From NCBI RefSeq assembly GCF_030410395.1, contig NZ_JAUHHF010000003.1, positions 62,001 to 126,000 on the forward strand: a DNA stretch of 64,000 nt, read 5' to 3'. Positions 1-7,166 of this stretch are shown here, piece after piece (the stretch's first letter is position 1; each line of letters opens with the position of its first letter). The notes under the pieces are model-generated. The model was not told the origin of the DNA. It saw only the letters and a list, made by a program, of their open reading frames with translations, and did no database searches. Both the position numbers and the translations under genes were made by a program. This DNA is from Zwartia panacis. Lineage in GTDB: Bacteria; Pseudomonadota; Gammaproteobacteria; Burkholderiales; Burkholderiaceae_B.

Positions 1-2019
1 TATTTTCCGAATGTCGACTATTTCCTAGAAGTTCTTGGTCGATGCGTGCACGAACTCAGCAATGGCGGTCAGATCTTTGTCGGCGACGTATGCATGCTGA
101 ATCTGCTCGAATTAAGGACCGCTTCAGTTGAGTACTTCAAAGCGGATTCCGAAGTGACTGTTCATGTGTTGAGGGATCAAGTGCAACGCCGCCTTGAAGC
201 GGAAGAGGAGTTGTTACTCGATCCTGCGCTCTTTGCGAAACTCAAGCATCGCTTCTCGGAAATCAGCGACGTAGAATTCACCTTGAAACGCAGCATCTAC
301 GCCAACGAGATGTCCCTTTTTCGCTGCGATGTAGTCATTCACGTGAATCAACGTTCACCCCATCGCGATATACCCTCAAACGAACAGACGCTTGATGCGC
401 GAATGACACCACTCGGCATTGAAGATTTCGCCAAACTTCTGGAGGGACGACCCGACCGCTTATGGGTCAAAGGCATCTCAAATGGAAAATTGGTGCGAGA
501 CCTGAATATTGTGTCTCGACTCAGGGATCGCCAAGAGCAGGATACTGTCCTCAAAAAATCCAGCATGCTTCACGATATTGAGCTTGCGTCTCAAGGAGCA
601 CTACTGCCCGAAGCGCTCTATGAGCTGGCTGAAAAGCTAGGCTATTGGGCAGGACTCATGTTCTCCTCGTCCAATCCCGAACAATGCTTTGATGCTTATT
701 TTGTCAAGCATAGTCTTGCACCAGGGTTAACCGGCATTCCTTGCAATATGCTCTATGCAGGCGACCAATTGGCGCAGCGCCCATGGACAGAGCTCGCCAA
801 CCAACCCACTGTTCGCGATATGAATCGTCTATTCATCGCGCATCTGAAAGACACACTTTCGGCCTCCTTGCCAGATTACATGGTGCCGTCCAATTTTGTC
901 GTGTTAAGCCGTATGCCTGTGACCCCCAATGGCAAACTCGATGCGCGCGCCCTTCCGGACCCGGAAATCGCAGGATCCGAAACCTATCAAGCGCCTCAGA
1001 GTGATACGGAAATCATCCTGTGTGAATTGTTCTCGGGATTGACCGGCGCGAACCGAGTGGGTATCCATGACAACTTCTTCGCACTGGGTGGACACTCGCT
1101 TTTAGCGATGCGATTGGTTTCTAAAGTCCGTGAGGCCTGCGGTGTAGAGCTGCCGATGCGTGCACTCTTTGAGCACCCCACACCTGGACAACTCGCACAC
1201 GTCATCGAAACCGGACAAACACGCCCCTACACTCCCTTGGTGCCTTTACGTAAAACCGGCTCACAGCCCGTGCTGTTTTGCGTACACCCAGCAGGAGGCA
1301 GTGCCAGCGTTTACGGTAACCTAGCTCAGGCGCTGGGGGCTGACCAACCCGTCTGGGCGCTGCAAGCCAAAGGATTGGAAGCGGGTGAAACACCGCACAC
1401 TTCGATGCAAGAGGTCGTCAAAGTTTATGTCGCAGCCCTACGTGAAGTCAGTCCGCATGGACCTTACCGACTGCTTGGCACTTCTCTCGGAGGGACGATC
1501 GCGCACGCGATGGCAGCAGAACTCGAACGCCAGGGATGCCTCGTCGACAAACTGATTCTTGTCGACACCGCCACAATCTCCAGCAGTACCCTCAGCGCGG
1601 ATCCAGACGAACGGGCGCGCCAAATTGTGAGCGCAATCGCACAAGATGCGGGCATCGAACAAGCCGCATTCGCTTCTGAAGAGGGTTTACTCTTGCAAAT
1701 CAGAGACCATATGGCCTCAGTCAACATGATTCCCGACGAAATGCCCCTGGACTGGTTCAAACGAATGCTTGATCACTCCGTTCAAGCAAGCAGTCTGACC
1801 GCGCATCACGTCCTGCCAGTCGTTCAGGCACCCATCTTGCTGGTGAAGGCCACCCTCGAGGTCCCGCCTGAAAATCCAGCAGTTTTCGACTGGTCGCCTT
1901 ATACGACAAATCAGGCTCAAACCGTCGATATTCCCGCCAGTCACTCGGATATTCTGTGGCGACAAGAGACGCTGGTTTCGCTTGCAACGGCAATTAATCG
2001 CTACCTTTCCAACCCTTAG
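1..2019 (+). CDS. NRPS C-terminal part: methyltransferase tail, A-domain end, carrier, thioesterase (5' partial)
   Basis: The frame is open to the left edge, so this is the end of a larger non-ribosomal peptide synthetase; the GTG at 46 is internal. From the edge: the end of a SAM methyltransferase of the kind inserted in adenylation domains (YFPNVDYFLEVL, then GGQIFVGDV, then a VEFTLKR...NEMSLFRCDVV segment, to about residue 105 counting from 46). Then the adenylation C-terminal subdomain with an A10-type PNGKLD near 298, a peptidyl carrier domain with LGGHSLL (pantetheine Ser about 351), and a type I thioesterase with GTSLGG (Ser about 480), a likely Asp in ILVDT and a His in PASHSDIL. The last building block is therefore probably methylated and the peptide released by the thioesterase (inference). 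Adenylation specificity residues lie outside the window. Four oxygenase genes follow or face it. Confidence 0.93.
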   Translation, partial: YFPNVDYFLEVLGRCVHELSNGGQIFVGDVCMLNLLELRTASVEYFKADSEVTVHVLRDQVQRRLEAEEELLLDPALFAKLKHRFSEISDVEFTLKRSIYANEMSLFRCDVVIHVNQRSPHRDIPSNEQTLDARMTPLGIEDFAKLLEGRPDRLWVKGISNGKLVRDLNIVSRLRDRQEQDTVLKKSSMLHDIELASQGALLPEALYELAEKLGYWAGLMFSSSNPEQCFDAYFVKHSLAPGLTGIPCNMLYAGDQLAQRPWTELANQPTVRDMNRLFIAHLKDTLSASLPDYMVPSNFVVLSRMPVTPNGKLDARALPDPEIAGSETYQAPQSDTEIILCELFSGLTGANRVGIHDNFFALGGHSLLAMRLVSKVREACGVELPMRALFEHPTPGQLAHVIETGQTRPYTPLVPLRKTGSQPVLFCVHPAGGSASVYGNLAQALGADQPVWALQAKGLEAGETPHTSMQEVVKVYVAALREVSPHGPYRLLGTSLGGTIAHAMAAELERQGCLVDKLILVDTATISSSTLSADPDERARQIVSAIAQDAGIEQAAFASEEGLLLQIRDHMASVNMIPDEMPLDWFKRMLDHSVQASSLTAHHVLPVVQAPILLVKATLEVPPENPAVFDWSPYTTNQAQTVDIPASHSDILWRQETLVSLATAINRYLSNP

Positions 2020-2048
2020 ACCCGCTTTGTTCAAAGCATTTTTAGGAA

Positions 2049-2083
2049 GATCGGCTGACGCACCCAAAATGTATCAGCCGATC
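2049..2083. terminator. Hairpin between NRPS and hydroxylase gene
   Basis: Perfect 10-bp inverted repeat (2049-2058 and 2074-2083) with a 15-nt loop in the 149-bp gap after the NRPS stop. No clear T-run follows on either strand, so it may be an mRNA 3'-end or attenuator structure rather than a strong intrinsic terminator. Confidence 0.4.
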
Positions 2084-2168
2084 GTTCGCAAGCCCTTGTT
2101 TTGCAAGTAATTGAGAGGTGTCCCGGCGGATTAATCATTAAGCTCTAGGCTCTCGACGACGGATACTG

Positions 2169-3086
2169 ATGTTTATGTCTAGCCAAAAAGATTTGGTCGC
2201 ACCAGCTGACCCATTGAATTTAGAAAACTATCAGCCTGAGCGTCCTGACTGGACGATTGATCAGGGATGGGAACGATATACGGACCAAGAGCATGCGACC
2301 TGGCGAACGCTCTATCAGCGCATGACCAAGCTCATGAAAGGACGTGCCTGCGAGCTGTTTGAGCGTGGCATCAAAGAGCTGCCGATGGATTCAGAACAAA
2401 TCCCCAATTTTGTCGAACTCTCCGAGCGTCTGTACAAGCATTCTGGCTGGACAGTTGTGGCTGTTCCGGGGCTCGTGCCTGACAATGTGTTCTTTGAACA
2501 TCTGGCTAACCGTCGATTCCCCTCTGGATGCTACATCCGTAGACCACACGAAATGGATTACCAGGAATATCCGGATGTTTTTCACGATATTTTTGGTCAT
2601 ATCCCGCTGTTGATGTACCCCCTGATGGGCGATTTCATCCAAAGCTGCGGCAAAGCCGCCGTTAAAGCTCACCAGCTGAATCAAACTGATCTGCTCGAGC
2701 GCATCGCTAGGCTCTACTGGTACATCGTCGAAGTCGGGCTGGTGCAAGAAGAAGATGGCCTTCGTAGTTTCGGTGCAGCCATCGCCTCTTCCGAAAAAGA
2801 AATTCTCTTTGCTCTCGAAGACCGATCACCCAATTTAGTCAAGTTTGATGCAAGACGCGTCATGCGCTCTGAGTTCTGGATTTACGATTTGCAGCAAACA
2901 TATTTTGTCCTGAACAACATGAATGATCTTATCCATATTGCACAGCTTAATCTTGAGTCGCTCGCCGCTGAGTTAGCCGGCACACCAGACATCGAGTTAG
3001 GTGAGATCACCGATGAGGATGCAGTCATCCAATGCGGCACATTGCATTATCACGAACAAAAACAACCTCAAGCAACCGCCGCCTGA
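2169..3086 (+). CDS. Aromatic amino acid hydroxylase (phenylalanine 4-monooxygenase-like)
   Basis: Member of the non-haem iron, pterin-dependent aromatic amino acid hydroxylases (305 aa, about the usual bacterial PhhA length). The 2-His-1-Glu facial triad is visible: HDIFGH gives His about 139 and 144, and YWYIVEVGLV gives Glu about 188. The fold landmarks FPSGCYIRRP and SFGAAIASSEKE are also present. In the family, enzymes use O2 and tetrahydropterin to hydroxylate Phe (para or, in some antibiotic pathways, meta) or Trp. Its place directly after an NRPS and before two more oxygenase genes suggests it makes a hydroxylated aromatic precursor for the peptide rather than serving Phe catabolism; no pterin carbinolamine dehydratase gene is adjacent. 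The start could be 2169 or the ATG at 2175. Substrate and regiochemistry cannot be read from motifs. Confidence 0.88.
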   Translation: MFMSSQKDLVAPADPLNLENYQPERPDWTIDQGWERYTDQEHATWRTLYQRMTKLMKGRACELFERGIKELPMDSEQIPNFVELSERLYKHSGWTVVAVPGLVPDNVFFEHLANRRFPSGCYIRRPHEMDYQEYPDVFHDIFGHIPLLMYPLMGDFIQSCGKAAVKAHQLNQTDLLERIARLYWYIVEVGLVQEEDGLRSFGAAIASSEKEILFALEDRSPNLVKFDARRVMRSEFWIYDLQQTYFVLNNMNDLIHIAQLNLESLAAELAGTPDIELGEITDEDAVIQCGTLHYHEQKQPQATAA

Positions 3087-3119
3087 GTAGACACGTCCAA
3101 TAGACTGGATTACGAAATC

Positions 3120-3932
3120 ATGACACTGACAGCCAATCAAATTGACGCCTACGAGCGGGACGGATACTTTGTCCAGCGCGATGCGCTCAGCCAAGAAGAG
3201 GTAGAAAACCTTCTTGCATGCACGCTGGAGTTTCAGACTCAGTCCTACCCTGGGCATGTCCTGGAAAAAGACGGCAAAACATATCGCGCCTTTCATGGCT
3301 GCCATCTTTACGATGAAACCTACAGTGACTTGATACGCGCGCCTCAGTTTCTGACGCCTGCAAAACAGCTCCTGAAAGATGAAGTCTACATTCATCAACT
3401 TAAAGTAAACGTCAAGCAGGCCTTTTCCGGAGAAATGTGGCCGTGGCACCAGGACTATATCTACTGGAGAAACGAGGACAACATCCCGACAGCCAACATT
3501 GTCAGCGTCATGATTTTTCTGGATGACATTGATGAATTCAACGGACCACTATTTTTCATTCCTGGCTCTCATCTCATTGGCTGTGTCGATACTCCCAAAG
3601 CCCCTGATGCACCCGCAGGCTGGGAAGGCAACGTCAGCGCATCTCTTACTTATCAAATTGATGCGCCTCTCGTTACGAAGCTTGTTGAAAGAGGTGGCTT
3701 GTTTTCAGCGACCGGAAAAAAAGGGACCGCGGTTTGGTTCCACGGAAATCTTGTGCATGCTTCCCCGCCAAACATTTCACCGCGAAACCGCCGAATTGCG
3801 ATTCTCACCTACAACGCAGTCAGCAATACACCTATCACGCAGCCTAAAAATCTCAGACCAGAATTCCTCAACGGACGCGACTACCGCCCCCTTGTGGCAC
3901 TAAACACCGAACAACTCGCCGTACCCGCTTGA
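3120..3932 (+). CDS. Phytanoyl-CoA dioxygenase (PhyH)-family Fe(II)/2-oxoglutarate oxygenase
   Basis: 270 aa, the family length. PWHQDY supplies the HxD pair (His about 110, Asp about 112). FIPGSH is the conserved loop after the second strand. FHGNLVHASPPN...RNRR supplies the distal iron His (about 213) and an Arg suited to bind the 2-oxoglutarate carboxylate. PhyH proteins in biosynthetic clusters hydroxylate free or carrier-bound amino acids such as proline or ectoine, or halogenate when the Asp is replaced; here the Asp is kept, so hydroxylation is expected. It starts 33 bp after the aromatic hydroxylase and is followed directly by the cupin-8 gene, so the three are probably co-transcribed. 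Substrate unknown. Confidence 0.85.
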   Translation: MTLTANQIDAYERDGYFVQRDALSQEEVENLLACTLEFQTQSYPGHVLEKDGKTYRAFHGCHLYDETYSDLIRAPQFLTPAKQLLKDEVYIHQLKVNVKQAFSGEMWPWHQDYIYWRNEDNIPTANIVSVMIFLDDIDEFNGPLFFIPGSHLIGCVDTPKAPDAPAGWEGNVSASLTYQIDAPLVTKLVERGGLFSATGKKGTAVWFHGNLVHASPPNISPRNRRIAILTYNAVSNTPITQPKNLRPEFLNGRDYRPLVALNTEQLAVPA

Positions 3933-3937
3933 GAAAT

Positions 3938-4834
3938 ATGATTCATCCTCCACAAAGTTTTGCACATTCAAGGCACGATTCCATCGAGCGTATTTCGGTC
4001 AATTACCTCACGCCTGAGATATTTTTCAACGAGTTTCAGCGTCAGAATAAACCTGTGATCCTGACCGATGCGTTCAGTGACTCAGTCCCAGTCGATGCCG
4101 AGAAATTAATGTCTCTCGTAGGCAGTATGGAAGTGCCTGTGCGGGTCTATGGTCCTGATCGCTTTCAGACACCCAAAGCAGAATGGAAAAGCTATTGCGA
4201 AATCCGCAAGATGACCGTCAGCGAATATTGCGAACTTCTCAAAAATGGCATTGCAAAACGCGACAGTATTTATCTTGCGATGATCGATATGGGCAAGACC
4301 CCCTTCCGACGGGTAGTCGGACCAGGCATCGATTTGATCGCTGAAAAGACCGGTCTGCGCCGACAACTGCCCAACGACGTGAACGTTTGGGTTGGACCGG
4401 GTGGGCACGTCGAGCCCTTGCACTACGATGGCCAAGATGGCACCCTGTCACAATTTCGTGGCACCAAACGTGTTTCATTATTTCCCCCTAGCATTCAAGA
4501 GGGGCTGTACCCTTTCGAGATGTCACATGGCGGACTGACACCAAATTTTAGTCAGGTATATATTGATCGTCCGGATTTTGACCAATTTCCCCGTCTGCGT
4601 GCGGCACTTGCAGAACGACGCATGGTTGACTTAGCGGAAGGTGAAACGCTTTATATGCCAGTGGGTTGGTGGCATGAAATCGAAGCGCTAGGCAACGACT
4701 ACATCTGTTCAGTCAATCGCTTCTGGAAAGTTGATCCCATATGGCGTTACAAAGAAGCCCCTCAAGCGGCATATCTGTACGGAATGTCGCACCTGTTCCG
4801 CCTCAAACAGCGGATCAAGCGCTTCTTCAACTAA
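3938..4834 (+). CDS. Cupin-8/JmjC-type Fe(II)/2-oxoglutarate oxygenase
   Basis: About 298 aa from the ATG at 3938; a TTG at 3929 overlapping the previous stop is possible but less likely. PLHYDG gives the HxD iron ligands (about 162 and 164). GTKRV carries a Lys about 15 residues later, the expected 2-oxoglutarate contact, and MPVGWWHEI gives the distal His (about 246). Family members hydroxylate protein side chains or small molecules. Sitting 5 bp behind the PhyH gene at the end of the plus-strand NRPS operon, it is most simply a tailoring hydroxylase of the same peptide. It converges on the CmlA-like gene, whose stop is only 3 bp away. Another possible role is modifying a protein of the host or of the cluster. 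Confidence 0.83.
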   Translation: MIHPPQSFAHSRHDSIERISVNYLTPEIFFNEFQRQNKPVILTDAFSDSVPVDAEKLMSLVGSMEVPVRVYGPDRFQTPKAEWKSYCEIRKMTVSEYCELLKNGIAKRDSIYLAMIDMGKTPFRRVVGPGIDLIAEKTGLRRQLPNDVNVWVGPGGHVEPLHYDGQDGTLSQFRGTKRVSLFPPSIQEGLYPFEMSHGGLTPNFSQVYIDRPDFDQFPRLRAALAERRMVDLAEGETLYMPVGWWHEIEALGNDYICSVNRFWKVDPIWRYKEAPQAAYLYGMSHLFRLKQRIKRFFN

Positions 4835-4837
4835 TAA

Positions 4838-6430
4838 TTATGCTGGCAGCGTGACGTCCGCGCTGCCAAACAAACGTTCAGCCTGCAAACCCAGATCCCG
4901 ACATGCGTCGACGAGCATCCTTGCGTTCACAGCGGGCACTGTATCCTCCGAAGGATCAATACTTGTTATGTATTGAAGCCACGGTTCAGCCCCCATCGCA
5001 TAAACATAAACGCGTTGGCTACCCAAACTTTTAACAACTTTGACCCCACGTTCTGCATCTGACCCGTTAAGGCGTCGAGTCTGATCTTTTTTACGATCAA
5101 CTGCTACTGGAAGTAAAGGTCCATAAATCCAACTGAAAGGTGCACCCTGACACTCCTGACCAATGAACAAAGTCTCGATGGGACCAAAGATCTGTTTGAG
5201 ATGTTCATACATCAGGGGTTCGAGGTTGTTGCTATCGGCTGCAAAAAGCAAATTTTGCGTGCCAGCTCTAACCAACCAAGCTGCTTTGGAACGAATATCA
5301 AGATCTCCGTGCTCCCCAAGAAACGGCAAGGCTGTGATTTGCATTTTGCCGCTTTCAACACTATCTAAGGAATCAAGTTCGATTACTTTTTTAAATCCAA
5401 TAGACTCAAGCATGAGTTTTAACGATGGGTCTGCAAGCCCTCCACCAGCACGAGGGACAATAATCGTATCGATCTTGTAGCGCAAAGCTAACAGAGTCTC
5501 CAATAGGACATGGTCAGCATGATTGTGTGTCAGCACAACAAAATCAATACGGCTTGGCAGGTCTCTCAACACTAAACGTTCAATGCCGCCATTCGTGTCG
5601 TAAGCAACAATTGGGTCCACAAGTACATTCGTTCCATCATCTGCTTCGACCAGTACGCAGGCATGTCCAAAGTAGCGCCAACGGGTCCCGCCCTCATGCT
5701 TGCGTTCGACAACGTCAGGCACCTGATTCGTCAGAAAATCCAGAAACTTCTTATCAGTAACCCCTGCTCGCGCCAAACGCTCCATCACTGAGTCAAGAGG
5801 TTGTGGCGTAATACGCAAAGCCGCCAGATAGTCGTATATTTCGTCACTAAAAGGTTGTATCAGTTCTACGGCATCAGAACGTGACAAGCGCGGTGTGCTG
5901 AACACGAAGGCGCGATTATCTCCGTTCGCCTGATAAATCAGGGCAGACTGCGAGGCAGGATTGTAGGCTGGACTCTTGTAGAGCAGCGGCTCAATCACAC
6001 GCAAATCAGGATGACCTCCCAAGGTGTAATACAACTCGACGTACCCCCTGACCGGTGCGGGCAAAGTTTCATAAAACTTCTCGATACTGAATCCGTCAGC
6101 TTGCTTTAAAAGGTTGCGGTAAGCAGTACGTAACGCTTCGCCAAACTCGATCTGCTGAGCCTGACGCTCTTTGGTTCGGGCAATCAAATCACGCACTTCA
6201 TCAACAGCGCTTGCCGGAAGATCGACAAAAGGCCCACCACGCAGGTTTGGGTTTTGACAAGCCGCAGCATGAACGTCCGGAGCGTTGACAAAAGACTCGA
6301 GTAAAGTCAAATGCCTATAGGGAACATTCAACGCAGCGGTCGCAGGTGAAATCAGATGCGACCAGGCATACCACCTCTCAACCAAAGGCTCGATCACCAC
6401 ATCCGCTTTTAAGATCACTAATTCAGACAT
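4838..6430 (-). CDS. CmlA-like diiron beta-hydroxylase acting on carrier-bound amino acid
   Basis: From the ATG at 6430 (GGAAAAAG upstream; the longer frame to 6544 overlaps the response regulator) the protein is 530 aa. That is close to CmlA of chloramphenicol biosynthesis, which hydroxylates the beta carbon of p-aminophenylalanine on an NRPS carrier. The N-terminal about 240 residues form the non-lactamase domain (LVERWYAWSHLISPATAALN near the start). The C-terminal half is a metallo-beta-lactamase fold with THNHADH (His 302, His 304, Asp 306, His 307), Glu 373 in LGEHGD and Asp 399 in FAADS. These positions lie 3-4 residues from the diiron ligands I recall for CmlA (305, 307, 309, 310, 377, 403); the Glu in place of the lactamase His marks this oxygenase class. 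A further C-terminal ligand was not identified. It probably installs a beta-hydroxyl on an aromatic residue loaded on the NRPS (inference). Confidence 0.87.
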   Translation of the reverse strand: MSELVILKADVVIEPLVERWYAWSHLISPATAALNVPYRHLTLLESFVNAPDVHAAACQNPNLRGGPFVDLPASAVDEVRDLIARTKERQAQQIEFGEALRTAYRNLLKQADGFSIEKFYETLPAPVRGYVELYYTLGGHPDLRVIEPLLYKSPAYNPASQSALIYQANGDNRAFVFSTPRLSRSDAVELIQPFSDEIYDYLAALRITPQPLDSVMERLARAGVTDKKFLDFLTNQVPDVVERKHEGGTRWRYFGHACVLVEADDGTNVLVDPIVAYDTNGGIERLVLRDLPSRIDFVVLTHNHADHVLLETLLALRYKIDTIIVPRAGGGLADPSLKLMLESIGFKKVIELDSLDSVESGKMQITALPFLGEHGDLDIRSKAAWLVRAGTQNLLFAADSNNLEPLMYEHLKQIFGPIETLFIGQECQGAPFSWIYGPLLPVAVDRKKDQTRRLNGSDAERGVKVVKSLGSQRVYVYAMGAEPWLQYITSIDPSEDTVPAVNARMLVDACRDLGLQAERLFGSADVTLPA

Positions 6431-6449
6431 TCTTTTTCCATTCAAAAAT

Positions 6450-7166
6450 TCAGGGTTCAATATCCACTGCGATACAAAGTTGATATCCCACGCCCCAGAC
6501 TGATTTGAGCGCAACATCCGAGCCTGGCTCAGAGATCTCGCCAAGCTTGCGCCTCAAGCGACTCACCAGACTTTCCAACGCACGCTTTCCCATGTCTTCA
6601 GATCCGGAGCGCTGACTGAGAATTTCAACAATGACTTCATTTTCCAGCGTATGGTTGGGCGCCTGAATGAGCCCCACCATCAACACTTTTTCGCTGTTGG
6701 TCAGTATGGCGCGCTGCCATTCAGCGGGCCCCGTGATCGATCTGTCTTTGAGTCTGAGCTTCCAGCGTTTATTCAGCACACCCATATTGAGCCGACGCAT
6801 CAGACTATGGAGGCCAGCGGTCAGCTCCTCGGGTGAGACAGGTTTATAAAGGTAAATATCCGCGCCAGACTCATAGCCCTTGACCCGATCGGCAGTCGAG
6901 CCACGTGCAGTCATCATGACAATCCCAACCTTGGGAATACTGTGACGAATCCGTCTGGCAATGCTCAGTCCGTCTTCACCTGGAAGCGTCAGATCAAGAA
7001 TGAATATATCGATGGGTTCCGTGATGAGCAATTCATCGAGGGACTTTCCGTTTGCGACACCAAACACCTGGAAACCCGTCTCTTTGAGATGATAGAAAAT
7101 CTCCTTGCGTAGCAAGGGATCATCTTCAACCAAAGCGATGCGGACATCGTAATTAGACTGACTCAT
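6450..7166 (-). CDS. OmpR/PhoB-family response regulator
   Basis: 238 aa. Receiver domain with acidic pair (VEDD), phospho-acceptor Asp 58 in ILDLTLPGEDG, Thr about 86 in MMTARG and Lys about 108 in YLYKP. The C-terminal winged helix has LESLVSRLRRKLGE and VWGVGYQL, typical DNA-recognition and wing segments. No histidine kinase gene lies beside it, so it is an orphan regulator within this window. It is 19 bp upstream of the CmlA-like gene on the same strand, so the two are probably one transcript and it is a candidate pathway regulator of the peptide cluster (inference from position). The MgtC-family gene upstream is 83 bp away. Confidence 0.92.
   Translation of the reverse strand: MSQSNYDVRIALVEDDPLLRKEIFYHLKETGFQVFGVANGKSLDELLITEPIDIFILDLTLPGEDGLSIARRIRHSIPKVGIVMMTARGSTADRVKGYESGADIYLYKPVSPEELTAGLHSLMRRLNMGVLNKRWKLRLKDRSITGPAEWQRAILTNSEKVLMVGLIQAPNHTLENEVIVEILSQRSGSEDMGKRALESLVSRLRRKLGEISEPGSDVALKSVWGVGYQLCIAVDIEP

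Follow-up and report, generated by a model that had tools for sequence, protein, structure and literature searches.

Oxygenases of the CmlA/FrsH family have been described, in the accessible part of the literature on them, as beta-hydroxylating amino acids held on the thiolation (T) domains of non-ribosomal peptide synthetases (NRPSs) (PMC7794379). In phenylalanine 3-hydroxylase (Phe3H), C187 replaces the Phe and T202 the Gly of phenylalanine 4-hydroxylases (Phe4Hs), and these two positions control meta versus para hydroxylation; according to the accessible part of that study, the C187A mutant remains fully meta, T202A is very slow and 67% meta, and Phe3H is 24-28% identical to bacterial Phe4Hs (PMC7027792). 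Here, we analyzed a stretch of 64,000 nucleotides (the window, C33:62001-126000) of the Zwartia panacis genome (G000; 3,341,787 bases in 54 contigs), whose positions 1-7166 form the 3' end of a larger NRPS cluster with its NRPS start approximately 27 kb upstream. As the original prediction had stated, open reading frames (ORFs) and domains agree on a pterin-dependent aromatic amino acid hydroxylase (PAH), a PhyH enzyme and a cupin-8 enzyme in a row after the NRPS, with a CmlA-like diiron enzyme facing them, and the catalytic motifs are intact: metal-binding motifs are present in all four oxygenases, as is the Ser motif of the thioesterase (TE). Judged from sequence, the locus is on balance best read as the 3' part of a complete Z. 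panacis NRPS cluster for an exported cyclic N-acylated heptapeptide, in which the oxygenases would have the roles suggested below. With more reserve, and at a little under even confidence, we propose that PAHs with Val and Ala at the two pocket positions (V/A PAHs) form a second class of hydroxylases dedicated to NRPSs, one that evolved independently from a proteobacterial Phe4H by changes at the same two positions as in actinobacterial Phe3H. Its type-1 members would provide module 1 of cyclic lipopeptides in a freshwater genus with meta-tyrosine or a different non-para isomer, and these lipopeptides would also be hydroxylated by FIH-, GriE- and CmlA-like enzymes.

The assembly line comprises two proteins with seven modules, NRPS1 (C33:34910-44683) and NRPS2 (C33:44673-64019), and 10 of the 15 condensation/epimerization (C/E)-type matches of the whole genome sit in this cluster. 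A truncated or dead NRPS to the left of the window had been considered, and both genes proved to be whole, with no internal stops. Based on motifs, NRPS1 has the order C(starter-type)-A-T, C-A-T, C-A-T and NRPS2 the order C-A-T-E, C-A-T-E, C-A-T-E, C-A(MT)-T-TE (A, adenylation; MT, methyltransferase), with seven A domains and three epimerases; in this motif-based order, the search pattern missed the T motif of module 6. The predicted thioesterase and embedded methyltransferase were both recovered: Pfam gave PP-binding and Thioesterase matches in 1-2019, the TE motif GTSLGG lies at residue 493 of the window fragment, and the window opens inside the methyltransferase, whose S-adenosylmethionine motif (C33:61776) is just left of it. 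Pfam gave no methyltransferase match on the window NRPS fragment (1-2019).

The A-domain codes were taken from an alignment with module 5 as its anchor, the final K being assumed. They are DGQTCAAVCK (module 1), DVWHVSLIHK (module 2) and DAQYFALVVK (module 3) in NRPS1, and DVWHVSLIDK (module 4), DAWTVAAVCK (module 5), DASKVGEVGK (module 6) and DILQLGMVWK (module 7) in NRPS2; six code strings were sought in the literature and none was found in print. We take modules 2 and 4 to specify Ser, module 5 Phe, module 6 Asn and module 7 Gly, and the code of module 1 is presumably aromatic-looking. A Gly module with an N-methyltransferase would give sarcosine, and the codes together suggest the peptide acyl-X1(aromatic)-Ser-X3-D-Ser-D-Phe-D-Asn-sarcosine. 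The multiply hydroxylated, methylated aromatic peptide first envisaged thus keeps its aromatic and methylated parts, which the Phe module, module 1 and the Gly/N-methyltransferase module fit on assumed code meanings, while its hydroxylations stay conjectural.

For the C domain of the first module (C1), the best solved matches were the RzmA starter domain 7c1k (138.1 bits), EntF (127.9 bits), Txo2 (124.6 bits) and CDA C1 (105.3 bits), whereas for C4, used as a control, Txo1 and Txo2 led (220.8 and 217.8 bits) and 7c1k was absent from the 35 matches at 1e-15. According to the accessible part of its description, 7c1k is a lipo-initiation starter C domain (PMC7804268), and C1 appears to be starter-like. 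Because of this starter-like domain, the three epimerases, the terminal Gly/N-methyltransferase module, the thioesterase and an ABC transporter above the cut-off of the cyclic peptide exporter model TIGR01194 (330.5 versus 286.2 bits), the product is probably a cyclic lipoheptapeptide, which the thioesterase would cyclise and release and the upstream-encoded transporter export. Two points tell against this picture of the product: the Txo2 score of C1 is close behind those of the starter domains, and the codes of modules 1 and 3 equal none that we know of.

The PAH retains the Fe-ligand motif residues His139, His144 and Glu188 and carries Val189 and Ala204 in place of the Phe and Gly of Phe4H. 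Val and Ala occupy both positions in all seven readable PAHs of the genus, and Tyr or Phe precedes the conserved Pro-Asp. The order-level controls, 64 PAHs in 62 further genomes (300 searched), comprised 61 with Phe/Gly and three with Tyr/Gly, and a profile search of the phylum found PAH in 130 of 398 genomes, the present one included, where all 29 non-own sequences among the best 30 hits had Phe/Gly. Since five phylum controls repeat the order set, there are 88 distinct controls, all with Phe (85) or Tyr (three) at the first position and Gly at the second. In an unrooted tree of the seven V/A PAHs and 55 of the 88 controls, calculated with the trait columns left out, the V/A sequences lie on one side of one branch with a support of 100/100; this tree lends no support to Val/Ala having arisen twice independently, once in each PAH type of the genus. 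The enzyme is thus altered at both positions that appear to control regiochemistry, but to residues other than those of Phe3H, and it belongs to a small Phe hydroxylase branch with an altered active site, which may make an unusual amino acid. Its assignment as an ordinary Phe3H of the PacX type was rejected, as the Cys/Thr signature is not present.

Within the genus, a PAH match was found in eight of 32 genomes, own included. Type-1 proteins (59-91% identical to that of Z. panacis) occur in G012, G026 and G028 and type-2 proteins (41-44%) in G015, G005 and G016; the PAH of G011 is a fragment that ends before the pocket positions. The gene adjoins NRPS genes in G000, G012, G026 and G005, PhyH and CmlA in G028 and, in G015, a polyketide synthase (PKS) gene with an NRPS gene after it, while the PAHs of G016 and G011 are at contig ends. 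A role in housekeeping Phe catabolism is disfavoured because this is the sole PAH of the Z. panacis genome, because the genes lie in or beside biosynthetic genes in the six genomes with readable flanks, and because the other 24 genomes have no match. A pterin-4a-carbinolamine dehydratase gene is present elsewhere in the genome. In G015, the beginning of a 2489-aa ORF (L130:5002-13379) with AMP-binding, PP-binding, KS, AT, DH and KR domains shares a few bases with the type-2 PAH gene, and type-2 PAH therefore seems to serve a PKS/NRPS hybrid locus as well.

Several observations weigh against a changed product. The PAH passes one Phe 4-monooxygenase model (TIGR01267, 287.2 versus 264.75 bits; it is below the cut-off of NF008877, 240 versus 247 bits) and is 44.6% identical to Chromobacterium Phe4H over 267 aligned residues, and its Val/Ala pair is unlike the Cys/Thr of known Phe3Hs. 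The match to C187 and T202 was made from the wording of the Phe3H paper and an equal spacing of 15 residues, not from an alignment with Phe3H, the correspondence of the pocket positions to human PAH is our assumption, and the phylum residues come from the best 30 hits in a set of 130 genomes with PAH. Three Streptomycetaceae plasmid PAHs, read from 45 matched records, had Thr/Ala (in an NRPS-type neighbourhood), Phe/Ala and Tyr/Ala; since Ala is paired with Phe or Tyr in two of the three, its presence by itself does not prove a changed product, and the Cys/Thr pair, looked for as a check of the mapping, was in none of the three. The Thr/Ala protein, annotated as hypothetical, is encoded on a Streptomyces tendae plasmid (L280:7974-8702) near adenylation, MbtH and GntD-type genes. 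A plasmid DNA search returned 10 records with short PAH or PhyH matches only.

The model match and the identity to Chromobacterium Phe4H, together with the aromatic-looking code of module 1, would also suit an ordinary Phe4H that sits in the operon and merely raises the Tyr supply for that module. We regard this as unlikely: the pocket residues kept in 88 of 88 controls are altered in seven of seven genus PAHs, a prephenate dehydrogenase gene elsewhere in the genome already provides a Tyr route, and three quarters of the genus (24/32) lacks a PAH match. We know of no pterin hydroxylase with a carrier-bound substrate, which counts against a rather less likely alternative, namely that the enzyme acts on a carrier-bound or larger substrate (such as an aminoacyl-T, or Tyr to be converted to DOPA) instead of turning free Phe into meta-tyrosine. 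Replacement of Phe by Val should widen the pocket and give room for such a substrate, and T-bound substrates are used by partner enzymes of the CmlA and FrsH kind, as stated in the accessible part of PMC7794379; on the other side, the change resembles that of Phe3H, whose substrate is free Phe in the accessible part of PMC7027792. The reading that we prefer is that the PAH has departed from Phe 4-hydroxylation and would make a ring-hydroxylated Phe other than the ordinary Tyr supply, for which meta-tyrosine is the best single guess. Module 1 would load this product, and its residue would be a non-standard one, perhaps meta-tyrosine.

The distribution of modules across the genus suggests that the oxygenases come and go with particular modules. 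A-domain codes were read in 13 genus genomes, which are mutually related and several of which are fragmented; this limits the weight of these comparisons. The module 1 code DGQTCA was found in all four genomes with type-1 PAH (G000, G012, G026 and G028) and in none of the nine others read; a V/A PAH is not always accompanied by DGQTCA, because four of these nine (G015, G005, G016 and G011) hold type-2 PAH. PhyH matches occur in 25 of the 32 genomes, where orthologues (66-90%, own included) are confined to G000, G012, G026, G028, G015, G008, G003 and G009 and the non-orthologues are at most 41% identical. An Asn-type code is present in seven of these eight genomes (G028 is without its middle modules) and, as a partial code, in one of the five lacking the orthologue (G001). 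The cupin (59-87%) accompanies PhyH in seven of the eight and is not in G009. Fisher tests on the co-occurrence gave 0.0014 and 0.03, values that are not real probabilities because the genomes are related.

The cupin, with its HxD motif as HYD 162-164 and His246 in a protein of 298 aa, is nearest to FIH (1.2e-20 over residues 129-271 of the 293-aa query), with JMJD5 also close, and would hydroxylate the Asn residue. The PhyH enzyme (HxD 110-112, His213) has 7e01/7dzz as its nearest solved structures, then GriE and then EctD, and a literature search on 7dzz yielded no substrate for it; the Zwartia enzyme scores below the NCBIfam ectoine hydroxylase cut-off (158.3 versus 336.5 bits) and would hydroxylate a precursor or residue common to the clusters that carry it. 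Against the link to Asn stand G001, with its partial Asn-type code and neither PhyH nor cupin, and G009, with PhyH and no cupin. As Phe and Ser modules track the PhyH-cupin pair nearly as well as the Asn module does, the assignment of the cupin to Asn leans on its FIH likeness. It is possible, though doubtful, that both enzymes serve Phe or Ser residues or the fatty acyl part instead, a view that gains from the fact that most genomes with the pair contain all three of the Phe, Asn and Ser modules and loses from the relationship of the cupin to an Asn hydroxylase family and from G009 (76% complete, without the cupin), in which PhyH and an Asn-type code were seen and no Phe module. An Asn target for the cupin is the assignment favoured here.

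The CmlA-type enzyme has the motifs HNHADH (302-307), Glu373 and Asp399, aligned to 4jo0 and 8a90, of which we take the diiron ligands to be part, and matches CmlA_N (PF18456) at 5e-78. Its nearest solved relatives are CmlA and 8a90, presumably FrsH, and it would beta-hydroxylate some T-domain-held amino acid. Genes of this type occur in 13 of the 32 genus genomes (the fourteenth of 14 hits is weak and falls in another family), and the co-occurrence does not appear to tie the enzyme to one residue.

The features of window positions 1-7166 are summarized in Table 1. The cupin ORF is given from its ATG at 3938 (the ORF list has a TTG start at 3929). A TTG at 6544 was considered as the CmlA start and dropped in favour of the ATG at 6430, where the gene probably starts because, in the related genome G012, the frame further upstream is interrupted by a stop. 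Promoter-like sites were no commoner than expected by chance (four found, 5.1 expected); nine terminator-like sites were found, with 5.5 expected.

Table 1. Coordinates of the features at the left end of the window
Feature	Position	Strand	Remarks
NRPS2, 3' end: last part of A7 with its N-methyltransferase insertion, T7, thioesterase	1..2019	+	Whole gene C33:44673-64019
Pterin-dependent aromatic amino acid hydroxylase (PAH), V/A-type	2169..3086	+	305 aa; Biopterin_H
PhyH-family Fe(II)/2-oxoglutarate (2OG) hydroxylase	3120..3932	+	270 aa; GriE (leucine hydroxylase)/EctD-like
Cupin_8/JmjC Fe(II)/2OG hydroxylase	3938..4834	+	298 aa; closest solved relatives FIH and JMJD5
CmlA/FrsH-type non-heme diiron oxygenase	4838..6430	-	530 aa from ATG 6430; CmlA_N + MBL fold
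Response regulator	6450..7166	-	Trans_reg_C domain; same strand as CmlA gene, 19 bp upstream; no oxygenase

Upstream of the NRPS genes lie MbtH (C33:34674-34907) and, before it, genes for a 430-aa protein (no Pfam match), a type II-like thioesterase, a 308-aa protein (no match) and a Band_7 protein, further the ABC transporter, two DUF697 proteins and a ParA-type ATPase. The set at C33:26404-34418 (430-aa protein, thioesterase, Band_7 protein, exporter, two DUF697 proteins and ParA-type ATPase), odd for an NRPS in its ParA and Band_7 members, stands whole or in part beside CmlA in G028, G015, G001, G003, G008 and G006, and in Delftia and Burkholderia weaker relatives of several members adjoin CmlA-type loci (L058, L068 and L092).

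Within NRPS2, C33:47769-49016 and C33:57156-58403, which span the epimerase sequence of modules 4 and 6, are 99.4% identical over 1248 bp (seven mismatches), and this identity suggests a recent event within the NRPS, either a duplication or a gene conversion. The HHxxxDG motif of C3 reads HHxxxDA or HHxxxDE in four orthologues (own, G012, G026 and G028), and C1 likewise has HHxxxDA. C3, which follows a Ser module, was considered as a dehydrating (CmodAA) C domain and rejected, as DG is not kept; in the accessible part of PMC11342130, DG is retained in every aligned CmodAA domain. The best solved matches of the C3 domain of G026 were Txo2 and Txo1, the same as for C4. More NRPS pieces are found in the Z. 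panacis genome at C1:117565, C9:12987 and C16:498, perhaps a second assembly line split by the assembly. On a contig labelled as a Rhodospirillales metagenome-assembled genome (MAG; L091), MbtH and a CmlA of 62% identity accompany an NRPS in which one code (DAQYFAFVV) is like that of module 3, a resemblance that possibly reflects transfer or misbinning.

A scan of named genomes covered the best 80 of 99 confirmed CmlA-type loci, with flanks limited to 10 kb per side; some of the contigs are short. Two of these 80, from Zwartia vadi (L042) and a betaproteobacterial MAG (L043), were the only ones with the PAH-PhyH-cupin set, and one more locus (L055) had the PAH-PhyH pair. A literature search, whose scope did not extend to reference cluster collections of the MIBiG kind, found no counterpart of the enzyme combination, and in the part of the Zwartia literature that was checked, NRPS and secondary-metabolite terms were not found. 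CmlA homologues are widespread and MIBiG-type collections lay outside the comparison, and the locus could to that extent be a variant of an already characterised cluster; we consider this improbable given the rarity of the PAH-PhyH-cupin set in the scan and a literature without this combination. The combination and the V/A PAH group are apparently undescribed, whereas each part comes from a known family. If the proposal is right, V/A PAHs would represent a second natural solution to meta versus para hydroxylation of Phe among pterin hydroxylases, and the paired A domain should read the PAH product. A freshwater genus would then carry varied NRPS clusters whose oxygenases change along with the modules, and named strains with such loci exist (Z. 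panacis KCTC 42751 and Z. vadi IMCC34845).

The comparison with described systems summarizes these relationships. The frs cluster for FR900359, to our knowledge, has no PAH, PhyH or cupin, has other modules, and lacks the series of D-residues with a terminal Gly/N-methyltransferase module. It resembles the Zwartia cluster in that MbtH and a CmlA-family oxygenase go together with an NRPS containing a starter-type C domain, according to the accessible part of PMC7794379. The Zwartia PhyH belongs to the same family as GriE and EctD and aligns with them over almost its full length, including HxD and the distal His; the cupin matches FIH and JMJD5 significantly over the HxD core, and is bacterial and NRPS-linked. 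Chromobacterium Phe4H (1ltu) shares the Fe ligand motifs of the Zwartia PAH, but has Phe and Gly at the two positions and EPD where the latter has Val, Ala and YPD. Phe3H/PacX of the pacidamycin type is, in the accessible part of PMC7027792, likewise a pterin hydroxylase that came to serve a peptide pathway and is altered at both of these pocket positions, although to Cys/Thr instead of Val/Ala. Because its identity to Chromobacterium Phe4H (44.6%) exceeds the 24-28% of Phe3H, the Zwartia PAH probably represents a lineage separate from Phe3H.

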